A DNA stretch of 64,000 bases, from assembly GCF_026191915.1 (NCBI RefSeq), contig NZ_JAIMBY010000010.1, positions 1 to 64,000 of the forward strand, given 5' to 3'. Made by a program: the position numbers and the translations under genes. The stretch's first letter is position 1. Every line of letters begins with the position of its first letter. A model generated the notes under the pieces. It had not been told where the DNA came from. It was given only the letters and a program-made list of their open reading frames with translations, and did no database searches. Shown piece after piece: positions 1,976-58,891 of the stretch. This DNA comes from Acidiphilium sp. PA. Lineage in GTDB: Bacteria; Pseudomonadota; Alphaproteobacteria; Acetobacterales; Acetobacteraceae.

Positions 1976-2006
1976 AGCGCGGCACGACCCCCACACCCAG
2001 ACTCCC

Positions 2007-2040
2007 AAAAGTTTTTTGCTTCTTTTTTACAAAAAAGAAG
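2007..2040. repeat. Dispersed T-rich hairpin repeat, solo copy
   Basis: AAAAGTTTTTTGCTTC leads into a perfect hairpin (2019-2040) with stems CTTCTTTTTT and AAAAAAGAAG and a two-base loop AC. It is the reverse-orientation form of a repeat found six further times in this window. With its short loop and T/A runs it could act as a bidirectional transcription terminator between the DUF1272 gene and the TauE gene. Whether it is a terminator, a mobile REP-like element or both cannot be told from sequence. Confidence 0.85.
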
Positions 2041-3027: not shown

Positions 3028-3132
3028 ATATCTAGATTTGATCGGTTGTGCGGTACAGAGGAGCAACGCCGGGCGGTGGTGATCAGGTTGCGCTGGCCGG
3101 ATGGGTTTTCCGGCCCGGTCTGTGGCGAGGCT
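3028..3132 (+). pseudogene. IS1595-family transposase N-terminal remnant
   Basis: The reading frame through this stretch gives RFDRLCGTEEQRR and RLRWPDGFSGPVCG, which resembles the N-terminal zinc-ribbon entry of IS1595-family transposases (normally R/W-P-(D/N)-G followed by C-x-x-C). There is no start codon of its own, the second half of the zinc ribbon is missing, and the frame runs straight into a perfect palindrome. I read it as a decayed fragment; it is short, so the family call is tentative. Confidence 0.5.
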
Positions 3133-3184
3133 GATGCACGCCTAATTCGTTATAATATCGTAACGAATTAGGCGTGCATCAGCC
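3129..3184. repeat. 56-bp palindrome with perfect 24-bp arms
   Basis: Left arm 3129-3152 and right arm 3161-3184 are exact reverse complements over 24 bases, separated by TAATATCG. The arms begin GGCTGATGCACGCC. The right arm supplies the TGA stop of the minus-strand gene ending at 3179, so the structure also sits where a transcription terminator would be, though it has no T-tract. It abuts the IS1595 remnant, and two terminal inverted repeats brought together by internal deletion are one explanation. No flanking 8-bp duplication is visible. Confidence 0.9.
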
Positions 3185-3904
3185 CCGTGGGCCTTTGCGC
3201 CACATTTTTTTGGCGTCGAACGAGGGCACGAAAGGGTGGTGCCAGGGGGGGACGGGTGGTGGCGGTGGGCCGAGGATGTCGCGGAGTTGTTCGGGGGTGA
3301 AGTCGATGCTGCCGTCGGGGTTGACTTTGTATTGGGCCATGAAGTCGGGCTGGCGCTTGGGGCGGGGGCGTTTGGGGCGGGGGGTGGCGGGGTTGGTGGG
3401 TTCGCTCCGGGGTTTTCTGGGGCGTTTGATGATCTGGGGGGGACGCAGGCCGAGCATGGTGTGGAGGGGGCGGAGGATGCGGCCGAGGCTGGGGTGGGTG
3501 GCCAGCAGCTCCAGCACGATGGGGTCTTCCATGAAAAGCTGGAGATCGGCGCGGGCGGCGGCACCGGCGACGACGGTGGCGGGGCCGTTGGGCAACAGGC
3601 GGATCAGCCAGGCGAAGCCGCGCGGCAGGGTGAGGGGTGGTTTGGGGTTGGGATTGGGGGTGGCGGGTTCGCGCTCGACCGGTTTGGGAGCGCGGGTGCG
3701 GGTGCGGGGAGATTGGGGTGGGCGGGATGCGATGCGGGCGAAGCGGGCGATCTGGCGGGCGAGGTAGTTCCAGATCAGGACGATGAGCGGGCCGTGGATT
3801 TTGAGGCGGTAGCCGTTGTCCGCGACCGAGCGCTGCAGGGCACGGAAGATCACCGTGAAGCGCTCGGTCGGGTCGGCAGGCATGAACGGCGCGTTTGCGA
3901 TCAT
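3179..3904 (-). CDS. Conserved hypothetical protein, proline-rich linkers
   Basis: A 241-residue protein I cannot assign to a function. It has an N-terminal segment with ERFTVIFRALQRSVADNGYR and IHGPLIVLIWNYLARQI (about 14-53), a proline/arginine-rich linker (about 60-92), a second conserved block with PRGFAWLIRLLPNGP and LFMEDPIVLELLATHP (about 93-142), another basic proline-rich stretch, and a C-terminal motif YKVNPDGSIDFTPEQLRDIL. The last motif suggests a short peptide-binding or adaptor element. No signal peptide is obvious. The palindrome at 3129-3184 overlaps its stop codon. The layout resembles lineage-restricted Acetobacteraceae families, but that is from memory. Confidence 0.6.
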   Translation of the reverse strand: MIANAPFMPADPTERFTVIFRALQRSVADNGYRLKIHGPLIVLIWNYLARQIARFARIASRPPQSPRTRTRAPKPVEREPATPNPNPKPPLTLPRGFAWLIRLLPNGPATVVAGAAARADLQLFMEDPIVLELLATHPSLGRILRPLHTMLGLRPPQIIKRPRKPRSEPTNPATPRPKRPRPKRQPDFMAQYKVNPDGSIDFTPEQLRDILGPPPPPVPPWHHPFVPSFDAKKMWRKGPRG

Positions 3905-3975
3905 GACCGTACGTAAACCATGGCGGGCGGGGGGTGAGAAAGGAAAAAGTCAGGGAAGGAAGGAAGAAAGGAAGC

Positions 3976-4010
3976 GCTTCTTTTTTGTAAAAAAGAAGCA
4001 AAAAACTTTT
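3976..4010. repeat. Dispersed T-rich hairpin repeat, solo copy (forward)
   Basis: A hairpin with stems GCTTCTTTTTT and AAAAAAGAAGC (3976-3999) and loop GT, followed by AAAAAACTTTT. It is the same core as at 2007-2040 but in the opposite orientation, so the two copies flank a 2-kb segment containing the TauE gene, the IS1595 remnant and the unknown gene. It lies between the start of the unknown gene and the end of the SCO1 gene, where it could terminate SCO1 transcription. Confidence 0.85.
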
Positions 4011-16656: not shown

Positions 16657-16741
16657 GGCACGTTCCTCCGGCGCAAATCTGCGCCGGTTGCGGGGGACTC
16701 GGCAAGGAAAACTGTAGGGGTAGCCGGAGCGAGGCGAGGAA

Positions 16742-16866
16742 GGCGTCTTTTTTGTAAAAAAGAAGCAAAAAACTTTCCTTAATTTGGGGTATCGCCGGTT
16801 TCACGGGCACGGTCTCAAATTTACAAAGTTTTTTTTGCTTCTTTTTTGTTCACAAAAAAGAAGACT
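16742..16866. repeat. Paired T-rich hairpin element (about 125 bp)
   Basis: The left half is a TCTTTTTTGTAAAAAAGA hairpin followed by AGCAAAAAACTTT. The centre contains TTAATTTGGGGTATCGCC and GGTTTCACGGGCACGG. The right half is AAAGTTTTTTTTGCTTC followed by TTTTTTGTTCACAAAAAA, in reverse orientation. The same head-to-head arrangement and centre recur at 23531-23654 and 54469-54588. It separates the divergent small membrane protein gene and the DUF445 gene. Confidence 0.85.
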
Positions 16867-16946
16867 CTTCCTTACCCTGATCGACCGCCTTAGCAGACCA
16901 TAAGGGACCGCTTGCCGATTGCGGTACCGCAGGCCACATCACGCCG

Positions 16947-22009: not shown

Positions 22010-23515
22010 ATGACAAGACCGGCCACCATGCGGCTGCACCATGATGACAATGTTCTGGTTGCCCTCGAGCCGCTCGCCAGCGGCAGCGTCGTGGCGGGAA
22101 TAACGGCGACCGAGCGGATTCCGCGCGGTCATAAAATGGCGAGCACCGCAATCGCACCGGGTGCCGCGATCCATAAATTCGGCCAGATCATCGGCTTCGC
22201 CGGTCAGGCGATTGCGCCGGGCGCCTGGGTGCATGAGCATAACGTGACGCTGCACGAGTTCGACCGTGAGTATCAGGTCGAGTCCCAACCCACCGCCGTG
22301 GTTGAGCCAGCCGCCTCGTTTCAGGGGTTCCGCCGCGCCAATGGCCGTGCGGGCACGCGTAACTACCTTGCGATCCTGAGTTCGGTGAACTGCGCCGCGA
22401 CGGTTGCGCGCCAGATCGTGCGCCAGGCCGAAAAGACCGGCCTGCTCGACGCCTATCCGAATATCGACGGCATCGTACCGCTCACCCACGGTACCGGCTG
22501 CGGCATGGCCGCGAACGGCGAGGGGTTCGAGACGCTCGAACGCACCCTGTGGGGCACCGCCTGCAACCCGAATATTGCCGCGGTCCTGTTCGTCGGCCTG
22601 GGATGCGAAGTGTTTCAGATCGCGCGGATGAAAGCGGCCTATGGTATCGCCGAGGGCGATGCGTTTCGATCGATGACGATTCAGGAGAGCGGCGGTACGC
22701 CGGCCACAATAGCCGCCGGGCTCGCGGCCCTGCGCGATATGGCGCCGATCGCCAATGCGGCGACGCGCAGCACCATTCCGGCATCCGAACTAATTCTGGC
22801 GCTGCAGTGCGGCGGCTCGGACGCCTATTCCGGCCTGACCGCCAACCCCGCGCTGGGGGCTGCGGTCGATATTCTGGTGCGGCAGGGCGGTACGGCGATT
22901 TTGTCCGAGACGCCGGAAATCTATGGGGCGGAGCATCTGCTGGTGCGGCGGGCAGCGAGCCAGCGCGTGGCCGATGATCTGCTCGCGCGGATCGACTGGT
23001 GGCGACGCTACGTTGCACGCACCGGCGATGAAATGAACAACAACCCATCGCCCGGCAACAAGGCTGGCGGGCTGACCACGATTTTGGAAAAATCGCTTGG
23101 CGCGGTTGCGAAAGGCGGCAGCGTACCGCTGAGTGGCGTTGTTCGCTATGCTGAGCCGGTGACCGGGCGGGGCCTCGTTTTCATGGACACGCCGGGGTAC
23201 GACCCGGTCTCGGCCACCGGCCAGGTGGCGGGGGGTGCCAATATTCTGTGCTTCACGACCGGTCGTGGTTCGGCCTTCGGCTGCAAGCCGGTGCCGAGCC
23301 TGAAACTCGCGACCAACAGCGATCTGTATCGCCGGATGGAATCGGATATGGATATCGATTGCGGCGATATCCTCGATGGTGTCAGCATCGCGGCCAAAGG
23401 CCAGCAGATTTTCGACCGGCTGCTCGAGATTGCCTCGGGTACTGCGACGAAATCCGAGATCCTCGGCTATGGCGATAATGAATTCGTGCCTTGGCAGATT
23501 GGGGCGGTGATGTAG
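22010..23515 (+). CDS. UxaA-family altronate/galactarate dehydratase
   Basis: A 501-residue sugar-acid dehydratase. Residues about 1-90 form the SAF domain (VLVALEPLASGSVV, HKMASTAIAPGAAIHKFGQI). The catalytic part carries FRRANGRAGTRNYLAILSSV, LTHGTGCGM, LGCEVFQI, LQCGGSDAYSGLTANPALG and PSPGNKAGGLTTI, with the conserved cysteines expected for iron binding. It removes water from D-altronate, D-galactarate or a related aldonate to give a 2-keto-3-deoxy acid. No uronate isomerase or aldolase gene is adjacent, so the exact substrate is open. ATG 22010 is given; ATG 22028 is an alternative. Confidence 0.88.
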   Translation: MTRPATMRLHHDDNVLVALEPLASGSVVAGITATERIPRGHKMASTAIAPGAAIHKFGQIIGFAGQAIAPGAWVHEHNVTLHEFDREYQVESQPTAVVEPAASFQGFRRANGRAGTRNYLAILSSVNCAATVARQIVRQAEKTGLLDAYPNIDGIVPLTHGTGCGMAANGEGFETLERTLWGTACNPNIAAVLFVGLGCEVFQIARMKAAYGIAEGDAFRSMTIQESGGTPATIAAGLAALRDMAPIANAATRSTIPASELILALQCGGSDAYSGLTANPALGAAVDILVRQGGTAILSETPEIYGAEHLLVRRAASQRVADDLLARIDWWRRYVARTGDEMNNNPSPGNKAGGLTTILEKSLGAVAKGGSVPLSGVVRYAEPVTGRGLVFMDTPGYDPVSATGQVAGGANILCFTTGRGSAFGCKPVPSLKLATNSDLYRRMESDMDIDCGDILDGVSIAAKGQQIFDRLLEIASGTATKSEILGYGDNEFVPWQIGAVM

Positions 23516-23530
23516 GAAGGGTAACAAGAG

Positions 23531-23654
23531 AAGACGTCTTTTTTGTAAAAAAGAAGCAAAAAACTTTTTTTAATTTGGGGCATGGGCGGTATCGCGGGCA
23601 CGGGCCAAGTTGGTGAAGTTTTTTTTGCTTCTTTTTTGTTCACAAAAAAGAACA
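23531..23654. repeat. Paired T-rich hairpin element (about 124 bp)
   Basis: The left hairpin is TCTTTTTTGTAAAAAAGA plus AGCAAAAAACTTT. The centre reads TTAATTTGGGGCATGGGC and then ATCGCGGGCACGGGCC. The right half is AAGTTTTTTTTGCTTC and TTTTTTGTTCACAAAAAA, reversed. The centre aligns well with the copies at 16742 and 54469. It sits right after the UxaA stop and ahead of the Liv operon. Confidence 0.85.
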
Positions 23655-23769
23655 CCTTCTCTCCCGTACGCTCCCGCGTCCGCCCCTTGCGGAGAGGATT
23701 GAATTTAATATACGATCGACACCAATCGATCAGCCTGAAAAATTAAATCGATCAGAACGGGAAACGAAC

Positions 23770-24906
23770 ATGACAATCAAGATCCAAACCGGCCTCGTCA
23801 GTGCAGCTGTTTTCGCAGCCACGCTCGGCATAGCCACCGCGCAGGCCGCCAAGACGATCGATATCGGCCTGATCGCCGATCTCACCGGTCCGGCCGCGCT
23901 CAGCGGCAAGCACAAAGTCGATGGTGCCAAACTCGCGGTCAATGAAATCAACGCCAAGGGCGGCATCAACGGCAAGAAAATCAAGCTGTTCATCGAGGAT
24001 GACCAGGGCAAGAATCAAGCCGGCGTCTCGGCTTATGAAAAACTCGCCTCGAATCAGAATATCATCGCCATCATCGGCTCGGTGCGCAGCACGATCGTGA
24101 ACGCGACGCTGCCTTACGTGGCGCGTGACAAAATTCCGACCATGATCGGCGGCACCGATCCGATGCTTACCCATGTCGGCAATCAATGGGTGTTCCGCTT
24201 CCGCCCGAACGATACCTATGCCTCGCAAGCGATGGCCGGCTACGCGGTGGACTCGATGGGTGCGAAGAAGGTCGCGATTTTATACGATACCGATGCGTTC
24301 GGCTCCGCCGGCAACGAGCTGCTGAAAACCGCCTTCGCCAAGGACAAGACACCGGTCGTCAGCGACCAGGGCTATACCACCGCGACGCGGGACTACACCT
24401 CCTTCCTCGAGAAAATCAAAAGCTCGGGGGCGAATCTGCTGGCCACCTACATGACGAATGCCGAGGATGAAGCGCAGATGCTCAAGCAGCTGCGCCAGCT
24501 CGGCCTGAAAATCCAGATCATGGGTTCCCCTTCGATCGCCACCGCCGTATGCATCCAGCTTGCCGGACCGGCCGTGAACGGCACCTATGGCGTGTCGGAT
24601 TTCGTGGCGAATGGCAATCCGCAGGCCAAGGCATTCACCGCCAAATACACCGCCGCTTATCATTCCGAACCCGATCTGTTCGGCGGATGGGTCTATGATG
24701 CGATCAACGTGCTCTCGCGGGTGATCGCGAAGGACGGCACCTCCGGTCCTGCCATCCAGAAAGGGATCCGGGCGGTCAAGGGCTACAAAGGTGTCGAAGG
24801 CGTCTATAATTTCGATGACAAGGGCGACGGACTGCACGGCTATTCGGTGGTGAAGATAACGGATGGCAAGGTGCATCTGATCAAATACGACGATTTCACC
24901 AAGTAG
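23770..24906 (+). CDS. livK: Branched-chain amino acid ABC transporter substrate-binding protein
   Basis: A 378-residue periplasmic protein of the Leu/Ile/Val-binding class (Peripla_BP_6), with a signal peptide cut near residue 26 (TAQA). It has the N-terminal IGLIADLTGPAALSGK, ELxxxDDQG-like FIEDDQGKNQ, IIGSVRSTIVNATLPYVARD and the hinge region PSIATAVCIQLAGPA. It delivers its ligand to the LivH/LivM permeases encoded next. The ligand may be an amino acid, amide, urea or aromatic acid; family membership does not decide. It is the first gene of a four-gene Liv operon. Confidence 0.92.
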   Translation: MTIKIQTGLVSAAVFAATLGIATAQAAKTIDIGLIADLTGPAALSGKHKVDGAKLAVNEINAKGGINGKKIKLFIEDDQGKNQAGVSAYEKLASNQNIIAIIGSVRSTIVNATLPYVARDKIPTMIGGTDPMLTHVGNQWVFRFRPNDTYASQAMAGYAVDSMGAKKVAILYDTDAFGSAGNELLKTAFAKDKTPVVSDQGYTTATRDYTSFLEKIKSSGANLLATYMTNAEDEAQMLKQLRQLGLKIQIMGSPSIATAVCIQLAGPAVNGTYGVSDFVANGNPQAKAFTAKYTAAYHSEPDLFGGWVYDAINVLSRVIAKDGTSGPAIQKGIRAVKGYKGVEGVYNFDDKGDGLHGYSVVKITDGKVHLIKYDDFTK

Positions 24907-45920: not shown

Positions 45921-45962
45921 TGGCGCTGGGCTGCCGGGCACAGGCGGAAAGGCGACGCAAGC

Positions 45963-46025
45963 ACGTCTTTTTTGTAAAAGAGCGGCACAAAACTTTTGTT
46001 AATCCGGCGCGCGGTTGGTTTCACT
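45963..46025. repeat. Degenerate T-rich hairpin repeat within the chvI-chvG spacer
   Basis: TCTTTTTTGTAAAAGA followed by GCGGCACAAAACTTTTG, then AATCCGGCGCGCGGTTGG and TTTCACTGCCC, which recalls the centre of the paired elements. The stem is weakened (AAAAGAGCGG instead of AAAAAAGAAGC), as if it had decayed inside this probable operon, where a working terminator would be harmful. Confidence 0.65.
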
Positions 46026-51976: not shown

Positions 51977-53689
51977 ATGAAACTCAAGACATCGACCCTC
52001 ACGTCCTGCTTGCTCGGCAGCGCCCTGCTCGCGCTCGCCATCCCCGGCATCGGCCATGCCATGCCATCCTACCCGCCGGTGACCCAGTCCCGGCTCGACA
52101 ACGCCGCCTCATCCAAAGGCTGGCTGATGTTCAACCGCGACTATGCGGGCGACGATTACGCCCCCTATGCCGCGATCAACACCAGCAACGTCGCCTCGTT
52201 GAAGCCGGTCTGGACCTCGCCCAAGGTCAACATCCCGCACGGTTTCGAAAACGTGCCGATCATCAACGGCGACTACATGTTCGTCACCACCCCGCTCGAT
52301 CACCTCATGGCGTTCGACGCCAAGACCGGCAAGCTGCTCTGGAAATACACCTACAAGCTGGCGGGCGATGCGACCAAGACGATCTGCTGCGACGTCAATA
52401 ACCGCGGCGTCGCCGTCTATGACGACATGGTCTACATGGCCACGATCGACAATCACGTCGTTGCCTTCGATGCCAAGACCGGCAAGGTCGCCTGGAACAC
52501 CGCCCTGTACAAGCCCGGGGTCGGCTACTCGATCGACGAAGCCCCGCTGATCGTCGATGGCAAGGTGGTGGTCGGCGTCGGCGGCGGCGAATATGGCGCG
52601 CGCGGCTTCATCGCGGCGCTCGATGCCAAGACCGGCAAACTCGACTGGAAACTCCACACCATCCCCGCGCCCAGCCAGCCCGGCGGCAAGACCTGGCCGG
52701 CCGGCGCCTACAAGCACGGCGGCGGCAGCCCGTGGATGACCGGCACCTACGATCCCTCGACCAAAACCCTGTTCTGGGGTGTCGGCAACCCCGGCCCGTG
52801 GCTCGCCTCGACCCGCCCCGGCCACAACCTCTATTCCGACAGCCTGCTGGCGATCGACCCGTCCACCGGCAAGATCAAATGGCACTACCAGTATACCCGC
52901 AACGACACCTGGGATTACGATGGCGTCAATACACCGACGCTGAGCAACGTCACCTACAAGGGCAAGCCCTACAAGGCGATCGTCGAGGCCAACCGCAACG
53001 GCTATTTCTACGCGATCAATCGCGAAGACGGCAAACTGATCTATGCCAAACCCTTCGTGCACGATACCTCGATCACCGGCATCAGCCCCGGCGGCCACGC
53101 CATCAACAACACCGCGAACCAACCCGGCCTCGATAAACAGATCACCACCTGCCCCAGCTTCCTCGGCGGCAAGAACTGGTGGGCCGCCGCGGTCGATCCC
53201 AAGACCAACATGGCCTACGTGCCGACGCTGCACGCCTGCATGACCATGAAGGGCGTCCCCACCAGCTACGCCGCCGGCCTGCCCTATCTGGGCGAAACCT
53301 TCCAGATGATCCCCGACCCCACCTCGCCCGATCTCGGCTCGGTGCAGGCGATCGATCTGTCGACCGGCAAGCAGGTCTGGCAATACAAGACCAAGGCGCC
53401 CTGGAACGGCGGCATGACGGCAACCGCCGGCGGTGTCGTCTTCAGCGGCGGCACCAACGGCAAGCTCTACGGGTTCGATGCCAAAACCGGCAAAATCCTG
53501 TGGACCAGTGCTGATCTCGGTTCGCCGATCGTCGCCGCACCGGTCTCCTACGAGGTCGATGGCAAGCAGTATGTCGCGGTCTGGTCGGGCTGGGGTGGCG
53601 TCTGGCCGCTCTGGTCGGGCAAGCTCGGCGCGCCGCTGACCAAGGCGCCCACCGGCGGCCAGCTGCACGTCTTCGCCCTGAATGGTTGA
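51977..53689 (+). CDS. PQQ-dependent alcohol dehydrogenase, XoxF-like lanthanide-type signature
   Basis: A 570-residue exported quinoprotein with a signal peptide (cut near GHA, residue 28) and GGAGG before the start. It has the vicinal disulfide Cys137-Cys138 in KTICCDVNNRG, Glu205 in VGGGEYGARGF, Asn271 in GVGNPGPW and catalytic Asp313 in TWDYDGVNT. Asp315 is the extra acidic ligand found in lanthanide-dependent XoxF/PedH-type enzymes. It oxidises a primary alcohol in the periplasm and passes electrons to a cytochrome c, probably the one at 54633. It overlaps the following binding-protein gene by eight bases. Confidence 0.92.
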   Translation: MKLKTSTLTSCLLGSALLALAIPGIGHAMPSYPPVTQSRLDNAASSKGWLMFNRDYAGDDYAPYAAINTSNVASLKPVWTSPKVNIPHGFENVPIINGDYMFVTTPLDHLMAFDAKTGKLLWKYTYKLAGDATKTICCDVNNRGVAVYDDMVYMATIDNHVVAFDAKTGKVAWNTALYKPGVGYSIDEAPLIVDGKVVVGVGGGEYGARGFIAALDAKTGKLDWKLHTIPAPSQPGGKTWPAGAYKHGGGSPWMTGTYDPSTKTLFWGVGNPGPWLASTRPGHNLYSDSLLAIDPSTGKIKWHYQYTRNDTWDYDGVNTPTLSNVTYKGKPYKAIVEANRNGYFYAINREDGKLIYAKPFVHDTSITGISPGGHAINNTANQPGLDKQITTCPSFLGGKNWWAAAVDPKTNMAYVPTLHACMTMKGVPTSYAAGLPYLGETFQMIPDPTSPDLGSVQAIDLSTGKQVWQYKTKAPWNGGMTATAGGVVFSGGTNGKLYGFDAKTGKILWTSADLGSPIVAAPVSYEVDGKQYVAVWSGWGGVWPLWSGKLGAPLTKAPTGGQLHVFALNG

Positions 53690-54467
53690 CGTCACACCCA
53701 ACACCCCGCCGCGTCCGCGGCGGGGTCTCGTCTGGTCCGGCGTTGCCCTGATCCTGGCAACGCTTACCGCCTCGGCCGGTGCAGCGACCACCAGTTTCTG
53801 CATCGACAAAGGCAATCCCTTCTTCAACATCGACCACGCCGTCGCCACCGCCGTCGCGCAGGCCGAACACACGACGCCGCATTTCACCGTGATCGACACC
53901 AGAGTTGGCGCCGATGCCCTCAATGCGCAGAAGGGCGTCTTCTTCGCCAAACTGGCAAGCCGCTGCGATCTGGTGATGGGATTTCCTGTCGAAACCGGCT
54001 ACCCGACCGTGCCGGCCGGCGTCATGGCCACCAACCCCTACGCCGCCACCGGCTTCGTCCTCGCCGCCACCGGCAGCAGCGCGCCGAGTTTCGCGAGCCT
54101 CGCGCCGCACACCAAGGTCGGCATCACCTATCTCACCGTGCCGAGCACCTATTTCGACCACGGCCACGGCGCCACGCTCGAAGCCCATGAATACTCGACC
54201 CCCGCCTCCCTCTACCGCGCGCTCGAAGCAAAAGACGTCGCGGTCGCCCTGATGTGGCAGCCCTGGCTGGTCAACCACCTCGCGCACACCCACGCCAAGG
54301 TCGCCCAGCACGCCCTGAGCCTGCCGCACGCGCAATGGCAGATCGTCGCCCTCTACAGCACAGCGCACGCCGCGTCAGGCAAATCGTTCGACCACGCGTT
54401 GCAGCATTTGGTGGCGCATCGGCAACTGGCTTCACTGGTTGTGCCTTACCGTGTGCCGACGAAATAA
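53682..54467 (+). CDS. XoxJ/MoxJ-like periplasmic substrate-binding-fold protein
   Basis: A 261-residue protein with an N-terminal membrane or signal segment (GLVWSGVALILATLTASAGA) and a type II periplasmic-binding fold: TTSFCIDKGNPFFNIDHAVA, DLVMGFPVETGYP and VGITYLTVPSTYFDH. It matches the MoxJ/XoxJ proteins encoded beside methanol-type dehydrogenases, thought to help activate or assemble them. It overlaps the dehydrogenase gene, which argues for a dedicated partner. The assignment rests on context and fold pattern, not on a ligand. Confidence 0.82.
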   Translation: MVDVTPNTPPRPRRGLVWSGVALILATLTASAGAATTSFCIDKGNPFFNIDHAVATAVAQAEHTTPHFTVIDTRVGADALNAQKGVFFAKLASRCDLVMGFPVETGYPTVPAGVMATNPYAATGFVLAATGSSAPSFASLAPHTKVGITYLTVPSTYFDHGHGATLEAHEYSTPASLYRALEAKDVAVALMWQPWLVNHLAHTHAKVAQHALSLPHAQWQIVALYSTAHAASGKSFDHALQHLVAHRQLASLVVPYRVPTK

Positions 54468-54468
54468 G

Positions 54469-54588
54469 AAGACTTCTTTTTTGAAAAAAAGAAGCAAAAA
54501 AACTTTGAACACTTGAGCCTGTACCAGTGAAACCGCCCATGCCCCAAATTAAAAAAAGTTTTTTGCTTCTTTTTTTCAAAAAAGAAGC
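54469..54588. repeat. Paired T-rich hairpin element (about 120 bp)
   Basis: The left hairpin is CTTCTTTTTTGAAAAAAAGAAG plus CAAAAAAACTTT. The centre, in opposite direction to the other copies, reads AGTGAAACCGCCCATG and CCCCAAATTAAAAAAAG. The right half is AGTTTTTTGCTTC plus TTTTTTTCAAAAAAGAAG. It splits the operon between the XoxJ-like gene and the cytochrome c gene, starting right after the stop codon. Confidence 0.85.
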
Positions 54589-54632
54589 CTTCCCTTAACC
54601 TTACCTAATTCTTCCCAACCAAGGACCACCCC

Positions 54633-56833: not shown

Positions 56834-58771
56834 ATGCGCCTACGGGACCGTTTGATTTCGACAGTGCTGGCCACCGCCATGGTGATGCCGGGGTTTGCCG
56901 CAGCCGGCGTCACCGCGCCCATTCCCCCGGCGGCGCGGCCCTACGTGGTTGCCGCGGGCCAGGAGCCGCATCTCTCACCAGCGCAGATGACCGCGCTGCT
57001 CCGCCAGCACATCAAATACGTCTTCGTCCTGTATCAGGAAAATCGCTCGTTCGATTCCTATTTCGGCACCTATCCGGGCGCGGATGGGCTCTATTCGCAA
57101 CCCGCGTCTCAAACGCCGGGCTTGACGCAGAAGATCATCGGCGTCTCCGGCAAGGTCGAGACGATCCAGCCCTTCACGATCGGGCCGGCCCAGTTCGCGG
57201 CCGACACGGACGACATCGATCATTCCCACCCCATCATGTTCGCCAAAATGCACATCGTGAACGGCCATGCCGAAATGAACCATTTCGCGCTGGGCGAAGA
57301 GCGGAAATACTGGAAATCCGGCCCGACCCCCTCGCTCAAGGCCAAGCAGATGGGCGAACTCGCGATGGCGCACGAGGATTGCAACACGATCCCCATCCTA
57401 TGGCGCTACGCCGATCGTTTCGTGCTGATGGATCACATGTTCCAGGACATGGTCGGCCCCTCCACCCCCGGGAATCTCTCGATCTTCGCGGCCCAGACCG
57501 GTCTGACGCAATGGGCCTTGCACCCGAACGAGGCATGGAAGCAGGTAGGCAAGCCGGGCGACCCGGTCGATTCCGATATCGACCCGCTCTGGGGCTCGCG
57601 CGAAGATCCGTTCCAGCACAAGCTGGTGCCCTACAACCCGCGCGACTACGCGCAAGACGGGCCGGGCAAGGTGCAGATCAACCAGACCTACGCCACCGTC
57701 GCGCTGACCACCGCGGGCAACACCATCAAGGCCAAGACCAGCCACGATCTCGACCCCAAGCCCGACCTCGCCGACGTCGCCAAGGACATCTCCTTCATCC
57801 AGCGGCTCGACCGGCATAAGGTGGCCTGGCGCTGGTTCGAGGAAGGCTTCTCCAGCCTGCCGGCCGCCAACAACCTCGGCCCGAAGGACGCCGATGGTGT
57901 GCACGCCTCCTACATCACCCATCACAACGGGCCGCAATATTTCGGCTACATCGCGAACAACCCGAAAATGACCGCCGATATGGGCGGGCTGCGCGCCTTC
58001 TTCAGCGCGGTCAAAGGCGGCACGCTGCCGGCGGAAGGCGGCGTGTTCTACGTCAAAGGCGGCTACCGCAATGGCTTCGGCCTCAAGCCCACCGATCCCA
58101 ACGCCACCGTGCAAAAGAAATTTCTGGGCGATGACGATCACCCCGGCTATTCCGATGCACAGATCAGCGAGGCCCTGCTGGCGCGCGCGGTGAACACGAT
58201 CGCAGCGAGCAAATACTGGGCGCATGCCGCCATCATCATCACCTGGGATGACTCGGAAGGCGATTACGACCATGTCCCGCCGCCGGAACTCGCGACGGCG
58301 CCGGATGGCACGGTCCTGAGCGATGGGCCGCGCGTGCCATTCCTGGTGATCTCGCCCTACGCCAGGGTGCACGCGATTGCGCACGCCGTCGGCAACCAGG
58401 CCTCGGTGGTCAAATTCGTCGATGCCGTGTTCAACCTGCCGCCCCTGGCAACGCTGCCGGATGAAAAAAAGGGCCGCGCGATCGGCCAGAAACAGTTCCA
58501 CCAGCCATACATGGGACCATTCGATGCCGAAACGCCGGATGTGACGAACCTGGCCTCCGCCTTCGATCCCGCCCGGCTCGATGGCAAGGCCAAACCCCTG
58601 CCGGCATCCTACGCCATGGTGCCCGAGAGCTGGACGACCGCGCTGCCGGCCACGACGGGCGCGGATTGCAAAATGATCGGCCTGGTCCCGACCAATGTGC
58701 AACTGCATATCCCCAACGTCATCCCGCCGGGGTTCAATCCCCGGCCCAAGACCAATCCCGGGGTGGGGTGA
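56834..58771 (+). CDS. Exported phospholipase C/acid phosphatase-like phosphoesterase
   Basis: A 645-residue secreted protein with a signal peptide (about residues 1-24). The phosphoesterase signature is VFVLYQENRSFDSYFGTYPG, where Glu, Asn and the Ser/Thr position belong to the metal and phosphate site of the PLC-type family. Further blocks are VLMDHMFQDMVGPSTPGNLS, the C-terminal AAIIITWDDSEGDYDHVPPP and RVPFLVISPYAR. It resembles acidic phosphatase AcpA/phospholipase C proteins and is longer than average. It releases phosphate from lipids or esters outside the cell. GAGGAGGG precedes the start. Confidence 0.88.
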   Translation: MRLRDRLISTVLATAMVMPGFAAAGVTAPIPPAARPYVVAAGQEPHLSPAQMTALLRQHIKYVFVLYQENRSFDSYFGTYPGADGLYSQPASQTPGLTQKIIGVSGKVETIQPFTIGPAQFAADTDDIDHSHPIMFAKMHIVNGHAEMNHFALGEERKYWKSGPTPSLKAKQMGELAMAHEDCNTIPILWRYADRFVLMDHMFQDMVGPSTPGNLSIFAAQTGLTQWALHPNEAWKQVGKPGDPVDSDIDPLWGSREDPFQHKLVPYNPRDYAQDGPGKVQINQTYATVALTTAGNTIKAKTSHDLDPKPDLADVAKDISFIQRLDRHKVAWRWFEEGFSSLPAANNLGPKDADGVHASYITHHNGPQYFGYIANNPKMTADMGGLRAFFSAVKGGTLPAEGGVFYVKGGYRNGFGLKPTDPNATVQKKFLGDDDHPGYSDAQISEALLARAVNTIAASKYWAHAAIIITWDDSEGDYDHVPPPELATAPDGTVLSDGPRVPFLVISPYARVHAIAHAVGNQASVVKFVDAVFNLPPLATLPDEKKGRAIGQKQFHQPYMGPFDAETPDVTNLASAFDPARLDGKAKPLPASYAMVPESWTTALPATTGADCKMIGLVPTNVQLHIPNVIPPGFNPRPKTNPGVG

Positions 58772-58788
58772 GGGCCGGGGAGGGAAGC

Positions 58789-58822
58789 GCTACTTTTTCG
58801 CAAAAAAGTAGCAAAAAACTTT
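58789..58822. repeat. Variant T-rich hairpin repeat with compensatory stem change
   Basis: GCTACTTTTT and AAAAAGTAGC form the stem, and AAAAAACTTTT follows, as in the other copies. The stem reads CTAC/GTAG instead of CTTC/GAAG, so both arms changed together and pairing is kept. It lies between the phosphoesterase stop and the MoeB/ThiF gene. Confidence 0.8.
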
Positions 58823-58891
58823 TCGACTCTGGTTGGCAGGGGTTCCGGCTGCCCTCTTGATCGATCCTGCGGGTGGTGCGATTCGAGCGCC

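Follow-up and report, generated by a model that had tools for sequence, protein, structure and literature searches.

A polar double-hairpin repeat of Acidiphilium and other Acetobacteraceae: a candidate direction-independent 3'-end signal

The window analysed here (the whole stretch of Acidiphilium DNA presented above, 64 kb in length) carries three intergenic elements in which two inverted hairpins flank a related centre. They raise the question of what such elements are: independent terminators that happen to look alike, copies of a non-autonomous mobile element, or a structured RNA that can be read in both directions. The initial annotation set aside the first option, offered the other two as alternatives, and took four solo hairpins to be halves or decayed forms of the element. 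All three elements were found in the sequence where they had been placed, and the family to which they belong turned out to be larger than claimed. The features of the window are as follows.

16737–16869, minus strand: full element 1 (profile score 110 bits, E = 1.2e-31)
16744–16765: arm hairpin of element 1, CGTCTTTTTTGTAAAAAAGAAG (sequence, repeat family D2; one mismatched pair)
16838–16863: second arm hairpin of element 1, CTTCTTTTTTGTTCACAAAAAAGAAG (sequence)
23527–23659, minus strand: full element 2 (profile score 108 bits, E = 5.8e-31)
23535–23556: arm hairpin of element 2 (sequence)
23628–23653: second arm hairpin of element 2 (sequence; CTTC/GAAC, one mismatched pair)
54470–54595, plus strand: full element 3 (profile score 106 bits, E = 2e-30)
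54473–54494: arm hairpin 1 of element 3 (sequence, fold)
54503–54558: centre of element 3, including the CTTT and AAAG at its edges (alignment)
54566–54587: arm hairpin 2 of element 3 (sequence)
1996–2040, minus strand: solo arm (repeat family D7, arm motif)
3970–4010, plus strand: solo arm, hairpin intact, 5' of a copy of a 241-aa ORF unit (repeat family, arm motif)
45957–46022, plus strand: decayed half element, a damaged arm with a partial centre (repeat families D2, D3)
58783–58823, plus strand: solo arm with the compensated stem CTAC/GTAG (repeat family, arm motif)

Element 1 separates two divergent genes, namely an ORF for a small membrane protein (start near 16658, minus strand) and a DUF445 gene (start 16947, plus strand). 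Element 2 begins ~11 nt 3' of the stop codon of an altronate dehydratase gene (22010–23515), with the next gene starting at 23770 on the plus strand, and element 3 sits directly 3' of the stop codon of gene 53682–54467, ahead of a cytochrome c gene (start 54633). The orientation of element 3 is opposite to that of elements 1 and 2, and its centre reads GTGAAA..CCGCCC..CCCCAAATTAA; the common centre proposed at the outset is real, while the motifs then listed for it are the reverse complement of the inverted copy at 54469–54588. Among the solo copies, the one at 45963 is indeed a decayed half with a partial centre, while the arms at 2007, 3976 and 58789 still have paired stems. The last of these lies ~12 nt 3' of the stop codon of ORF 56834–58771, and the arrangement of a solo arm 5' of the 241-aa ORF recurs at C1:302658, on contig C1 of the source genome. 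Several solo copies have perfect, even covaried, stems, and some are common to the source genome (G000; 4.54 Mb in 86 contigs) and its relative G005.

The extent of the family was established by searching G000. A BLAST search with positions 54460–54595 returned ~40 scored copies, with identities of up to 87%. A sequence-only profile, built from 30 oriented copies, aligns across nearly all of its 136 positions (E values down to 1e-36) and locates ~100 non-overlapping full copies, the total of 156 matches including hits on both strands and partial copies. Far from proving unalignable across the genome, the centres align in these ~100 copies; the 30 oriented copies have a single polarity and a single common centre, and the three window elements are copies of this one polar, ~125-bp double-hairpin repeat. 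The arm sequence AARAAGCAAAAAACTTT (up to two mismatches) occurs seven times in the window versus zero times in 100 dinucleotide shuffles, and AAGAAGCAAAAAACTT (up to one mismatch) 202 times in the whole genome versus once for a reversed control pattern. A chance origin of the repeat family is excluded. Rfam 15, at the gathering score, gave no match over the window elements or over 140 kb of element-bearing sequence, and no published description of the element was found in the open literature (subscription journals fall outside this scope). The element is a new family of a general kind, the small palindromic interspersed repeat.

Each unit consists, in order, of (i) a purine-rich flank, (ii) arm hairpin 1, with a loop that is often GTGAAC, (iii) C A6–8 CTTT, (iv) an exchangeable centre of ~50 nt, (v) AAAGT6–8 G, (vi) arm hairpin 2, with a short loop, and (vii) a pyrimidine-rich flank. 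In the consensus of the 30 oriented copies, the left arm reads CTTCTTTTTTGTGAACAAAAAAGAAGC and is followed by the A-tract and CTTT; the centre contains TTAATYTGGGC..GGTGAAAACGCCCGTGCCCCAGATTAA, and the right half continues with AAAGTTTTTTG and the right arm CTTCTTTTTTACAAAAAAGAAG, the purine-rich and pyrimidine-rich flanks lying before the left and after the right arm, respectively. The centre may be tandemly duplicated (in units of ~50 bp) between the two arms, so that the element becomes double or longer; such copies lie at the following places in G000.

C12:144334–145126 (L295): tandem-centre copies
C20:401–686 (L300): tandem-centre copies
C45:108967–109153: tandem-centre copies
C56:145843–146030 and 182634–182821: tandem-centre copies

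The arms matter as local hairpins, because their stems covary. Across 766 kb of G000, the paired changes CTTC/GAAG, GTTC/GAAC, CTGC/GCAG and GTCC/GGAC are seen, to which the CTAC/GTAG stem of the solo arm at 58783 and TTTC/GAAA elsewhere can be added. The left-arm loop likewise retains its closing pair, as G[TGAA]C or C[TGAA]G. In other genera, all four pairs are formed in 93% of arms, compared with 50% after the 3' sides were re-dealt (the maximum in 2000 trials being 63% fully paired). Covariation of this kind is the same signal for RNA hairpins and for DNA hairpins. One strand of the element can also pair along its full length to give one long hairpin (-43.8 kcal/mol, z -8.2), and both arms of one copy, that at the metF-uvrD locus of G002, are altered in a manner that fits the long pairing; the local arm hairpins and the one long hairpin may therefore be alternative folds. 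When element 3 is folded, its centre yields a weak hairpin. Two further candidates for maintained stems were rejected, the outer purine/pyrimidine flanks and the two centre ends: in neither is within-element complementarity higher than in re-paired elements or than composition would give.

The element is unevenly distributed. Of the 13 Acidiphilium genomes compared, one of which is G000, four reach 150 or more profile matches, one has 42 and one 16, with zero to three in each of the remainder (counts that include both strands). In the wider family, matches occur in 111 of 397 Acetobacteraceae genomes and in 37 of 102 genera. Other genera retain the arms and their polarity around a different centre, and the centres within any one genome outside Acidiphilium are recognisably alike (three to six copies inspected per genome). 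A single relative on a plasmid was found, on NC_015179.1 of A. multivorum AIU301.

Comparison of orthologous sites indicates how copies come and go. In G005, whose flanks are mostly 90–97% identical to those of G000, the element is present at all 23 compared sites, and the only rows of this comparison without an element concern tandem-centre or repeat copies. The copies are thus stable, with a mobility that is slow or past. Empty sites, which the initial annotation had suggested looking for, were found in relatives. The locus of element 1 (16738) is filled in G005 and lacks the element in G001, G002, G003 and G012; that of element 3 (54466) is continuous with G005 and empty in G003, G004, G010 and G012; and that of element 2 is filled in G005, while in G004 and G010 the related genes are not followed by an element. 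Elsewhere in G000, the copy at C1:290424 is absent from G001, G002, G003 and G012. In the opposite direction, G002 carries an element beside ureA that G000 lacks, and at C1:613049 it carries one where G000, G004 and G010 have a GC-rich hairpin. At C1:611784, both G000 and G002 have an element, with opposite polarities. The metF-uvrD locus (these gene names, like ureA, being recognised from sequence) carries an element in G000, G005, G001 and G002, while in G003, G004, G006, G008, G010 and G012 the two genes overlap at stop and start or nearly abut; one whole unit was gained at an ancestral GTGA stop/start overlap, and in G001 and G002 the metF reading frame enters the element and terminates inside it. 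Filled and empty sites at five loci reveal no consistent target duplication, with a hint by eye of 12–20 nt at C1:290424; the flanks have diverged, so that element ends are approximate in these comparisons.

Once in place, the parts of the element diverge at different rates. At 17 loci orthologous with G005, arms are 98% and centres 89% identical; in more distant species, arms remain 96–100% identical while centres fall to 67–83% (five comparisons at four loci, a sixth being left out by the cutting rule). The arms therefore appear to be under selection, in a test that covers few loci. The centres at several loci resemble a paralogue more closely than the orthologous copy, which suggests occasional conversion between copies.

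The best relatives of the altronate/galactarate dehydratase gene upstream of element 2 in the genome collection are mostly from Rhizobiales-type alphaproteobacteria, and the gene has perhaps been acquired horizontally; where the element would stand, its relatives in G004 and G010 instead carry a short tandem repeat, CATGTGACCGCC.

Position relative to genes was assessed on contig C1, with genes called by a simple hexamer model. The 31 full elements with two neighbours fall into 10 convergent, 19 co-directional and 2 divergent intergenes, against length-based expectations of 5.5, 16.3 and 9.1. That is, divergent intergenes are depleted (p = 0.003) and convergent ones show a roughly twofold excess (p = 0.056). 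The median distance from element to stop codon is 7 nt, polarity relative to the adjoining gene is mixed, and in about half of the co-directional cases 40 nt or fewer separate the element from the next start codon. The gene for ribosomal protein L10 (rplJ, recognised from sequence) is flanked by two copies. A role as tRNA terminator was also considered; no element lies downstream of any of 10 tRNA genes, a sample too small to be informative.

Taken together, the mobile-repeat and bidirectional-RNA options of the initial annotation are compatible, and their combination is favoured. The explanation to which we lean, by a modest degree, is that the element is a non-autonomous palindromic interspersed repeat of Acetobacteraceae whose transcribed hairpins would serve as a portable, direction-independent 3'-end signal. 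Gains are of whole units, mostly within ~20 nt 3' of a stop codon and in either polarity, and the spread would be due to a mobiliser or to recombination. Copies are then inherited in place, the arms apparently kept by selection while centres drift and seem at times to be replaced from other copies. The unit would share the transcript of the gene upstream of it, or the transcripts of both neighbours where these converge; its arms would fold as local RNA hairpins and, together with the A-tract/centre/U-tract core, form a signal that attenuates or terminates transcription, protects the RNA end, or both. We infer RNA as the acting molecule, as we do termination or attenuation and the route of spread. 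A 3'-end signal is the most economical function because the local hairpins and the A-tract/T-tract core can be read from both strands, and the exchange of an element in G002 with a GC-rich hairpin in its sisters supports it at one locus. Complete termination everywhere is unlikely and cannot be the rule, because several copies lie at operon junctions, with 40 nt or fewer to the next start; copies there imply read-through or a new promoter. A pattern scan for the canonical terminator (a GC-rich hairpin followed by a U-tract) found none at two elements. Since the core fails this pattern and copies occur at operon junctions, attenuation, pausing, RNA processing or end protection is as likely as full termination.

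The foremost alternative, which we consider unlikely, is that the repeat is purely selfish and REPIN- or MITE-like, mobilised in trans by a transposase and without host function, its position at gene ends reflecting the sites that tolerate it. This alternative fits the copy number and polarity of the repeat, the tandemly duplicated centres inside arm pairs and the gain of whole units, as well as the patchy presence within the genus, the genus-specific centres, and a layout of conserved inverted ends, free spacer and singlets as in REPINs (PMC3116915). The search for a RAYT speaks against it. No match to the RAYT domain (Y1_Tnp, PF01797) was obtained in G000, in a search whose control was positive in 5 of 14 known genomes, and RAYT mobilisation was rejected on this basis. 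Also against it are the lack of a consistent target duplication, the near-constancy of arms at fixed orthologous sites in contrast to the drifting centre, and the paired stems kept by solo arms. Read by sequence, the genes between closely spaced copies on C1 show no transposase. The multicopy 241-aa ORF was likewise rejected as mobiliser: many element-positive genomes are without the ORF and some ORF-positive genomes without elements, so the ORF is not required.

That ORF is a repeat in its own right. It is proline-rich, without Pfam or NCBIfam match, and lies at 3179–3904 (minus strand) in the window and at C1:254057–254773, C1:176589–177311, C45:108197–108913 and other places in G000, in more than 15 dispersed copies of 90–97% DNA identity, often with a full element directly 3'. 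Distant multicopy relatives occur in 51 of 299 family genomes; the G002 ORF is ~38% identical and also adjoins elements. At its 3' end in the window (3126–3180) is a near-perfect palindrome of ~54 bp (GGCTGATGCACGCCTAATTCGTTATAATATCG..), apparently two ORF-unit ends joined head to head. A second palindromic repeat, of ~200 bp and unrelated to the element (AGGGGCTCTGCCCCTGGACCCC..; C1:282208–282414, L154:2208–2414), has many copies on both strands in G001, G002, G012, G006 and others.

A still less probable alternative is that the arms act as DNA, whether as cruciform or single-strand hairpins for recombination, as a site for protein binding or chromosome structure, or as a DNA-uptake-type signal whose pairs also serve as terminators. 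Such a role is consistent with the perfect short palindromes and their A/T tracts, with the mixed polarity of the elements in respect of genes, and with centres that are at times nearer to a paralogue, as in conversion between copies; for it, the paired uptake sequences of Neisseria that work as terminators offer a precedent (discussed in PMC3049150). Covarying stem bases, however, speak against a fixed protein-recognition sequence, and the strong bias to gene 3' ends, away from divergent promoters, points to transcription. Independent intrinsic terminators, alike through composition and position, are highly improbable: gene-end location, the modest convergent excess and an A-tract/stem/T-tract readable on both strands would suit them, as in the bidirectional terminators between convergent genes of the alphaproteobacterium Zymomonas (PMC7566282), but a polar architecture and centre alignable at full length in ~100 copies, genus-specific centres, whole-unit gains, covarying local stems and the negative pattern scan argue, as the initial annotation had, against them.

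Among known systems, REPINs have the layout most like that of the element, SPRITE the most similar location and terminator-like character, and ERIC the most similar size and habit of lying between cistrons. REPINs, the RAYT-associated REP doublets (PMC3116915, PMC3733652), share with it strongly conserved, inverted ends that enclose a spacer free to vary, a size of ~100 bp, the occurrence of doublets, singlets and clusters, a hairpin fold and an extragenic location. The element differs in that its genome has no Y1_Tnp domain, its 30-copy consensus lacks the GTAG tetranucleotide of REP ends, each arm is itself an A/T-rich hairpin, and the whole is polar and found behind stop codons. SPRITE of S. 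pneumoniae (PMC3049150) is also an AT-rich, interspersed, terminator-like repeat near gene 3' ends whose spread is slow or past; it is a single 18-bp duplex with a U-rich tract, whereas the element has two arms and a GC-rich centre, is readable on both strands, and occurs in a GC-rich genome at far higher copy number. ERIC/IRU/RU-1 (PMC2229807, PMC10969869) are palindromic intergenic repeats of ~125 bp that form a long stem-loop and also occur between co-transcribed genes; their reported TA termini and target duplications are not seen here, and their hosts are Enterobacteriaceae and Vibrionaceae (a comparison by published description). The Caulobacter intergenic repeats (CIR; PMC2229807) are alphaproteobacterial and have two hairpin arms and a linker; they carry a conserved GANTC site for methylation, which is present in only 15 of 49 copies of the element, and membership was rejected. 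The Zymomonas terminators share the A-tract/stem/T-tract and the excess between convergent genes, and ordinary terminators, unlike the element, have no common sequence family, polarity or history of whole-unit gain. We place the element in none of the REPIN/RAYT, canonical terminator and CIR groups, because the respective defining features (RAYT and GTAG, a GC-rich hairpin directly before a U-tract, and a conserved GANTC) were not found in the searches described above.

Repeats of the small palindromic kind are usually taken to be selfish, or no role is known for them. In the present case, the parts of one can be told apart through relatives at graded distances: at fixed loci the arms stay nearly the same while the spacer drifts, and new copies arise directly 3' of stop codons, in one instance where a GC-rich hairpin is retained by sister species. 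Should transcript ends confirm it, the family would be a clear example of a repeat that provides many genes with 3'-end signals, and the natural insertions at operon junctions would form a graded series for measuring its effect. A wider possibility, which we put forward tentatively, is a portable, orientation-independent RNA 3'-end module of the whole family, in which two selected hairpins with a swappable centre spread in Acetobacteraceae, are installed behind genes, operon junctions included, and can replace conventional GC-hairpin terminators. If this is true, part of the transcript-end landscape of the lineage would be carried by a repeat.
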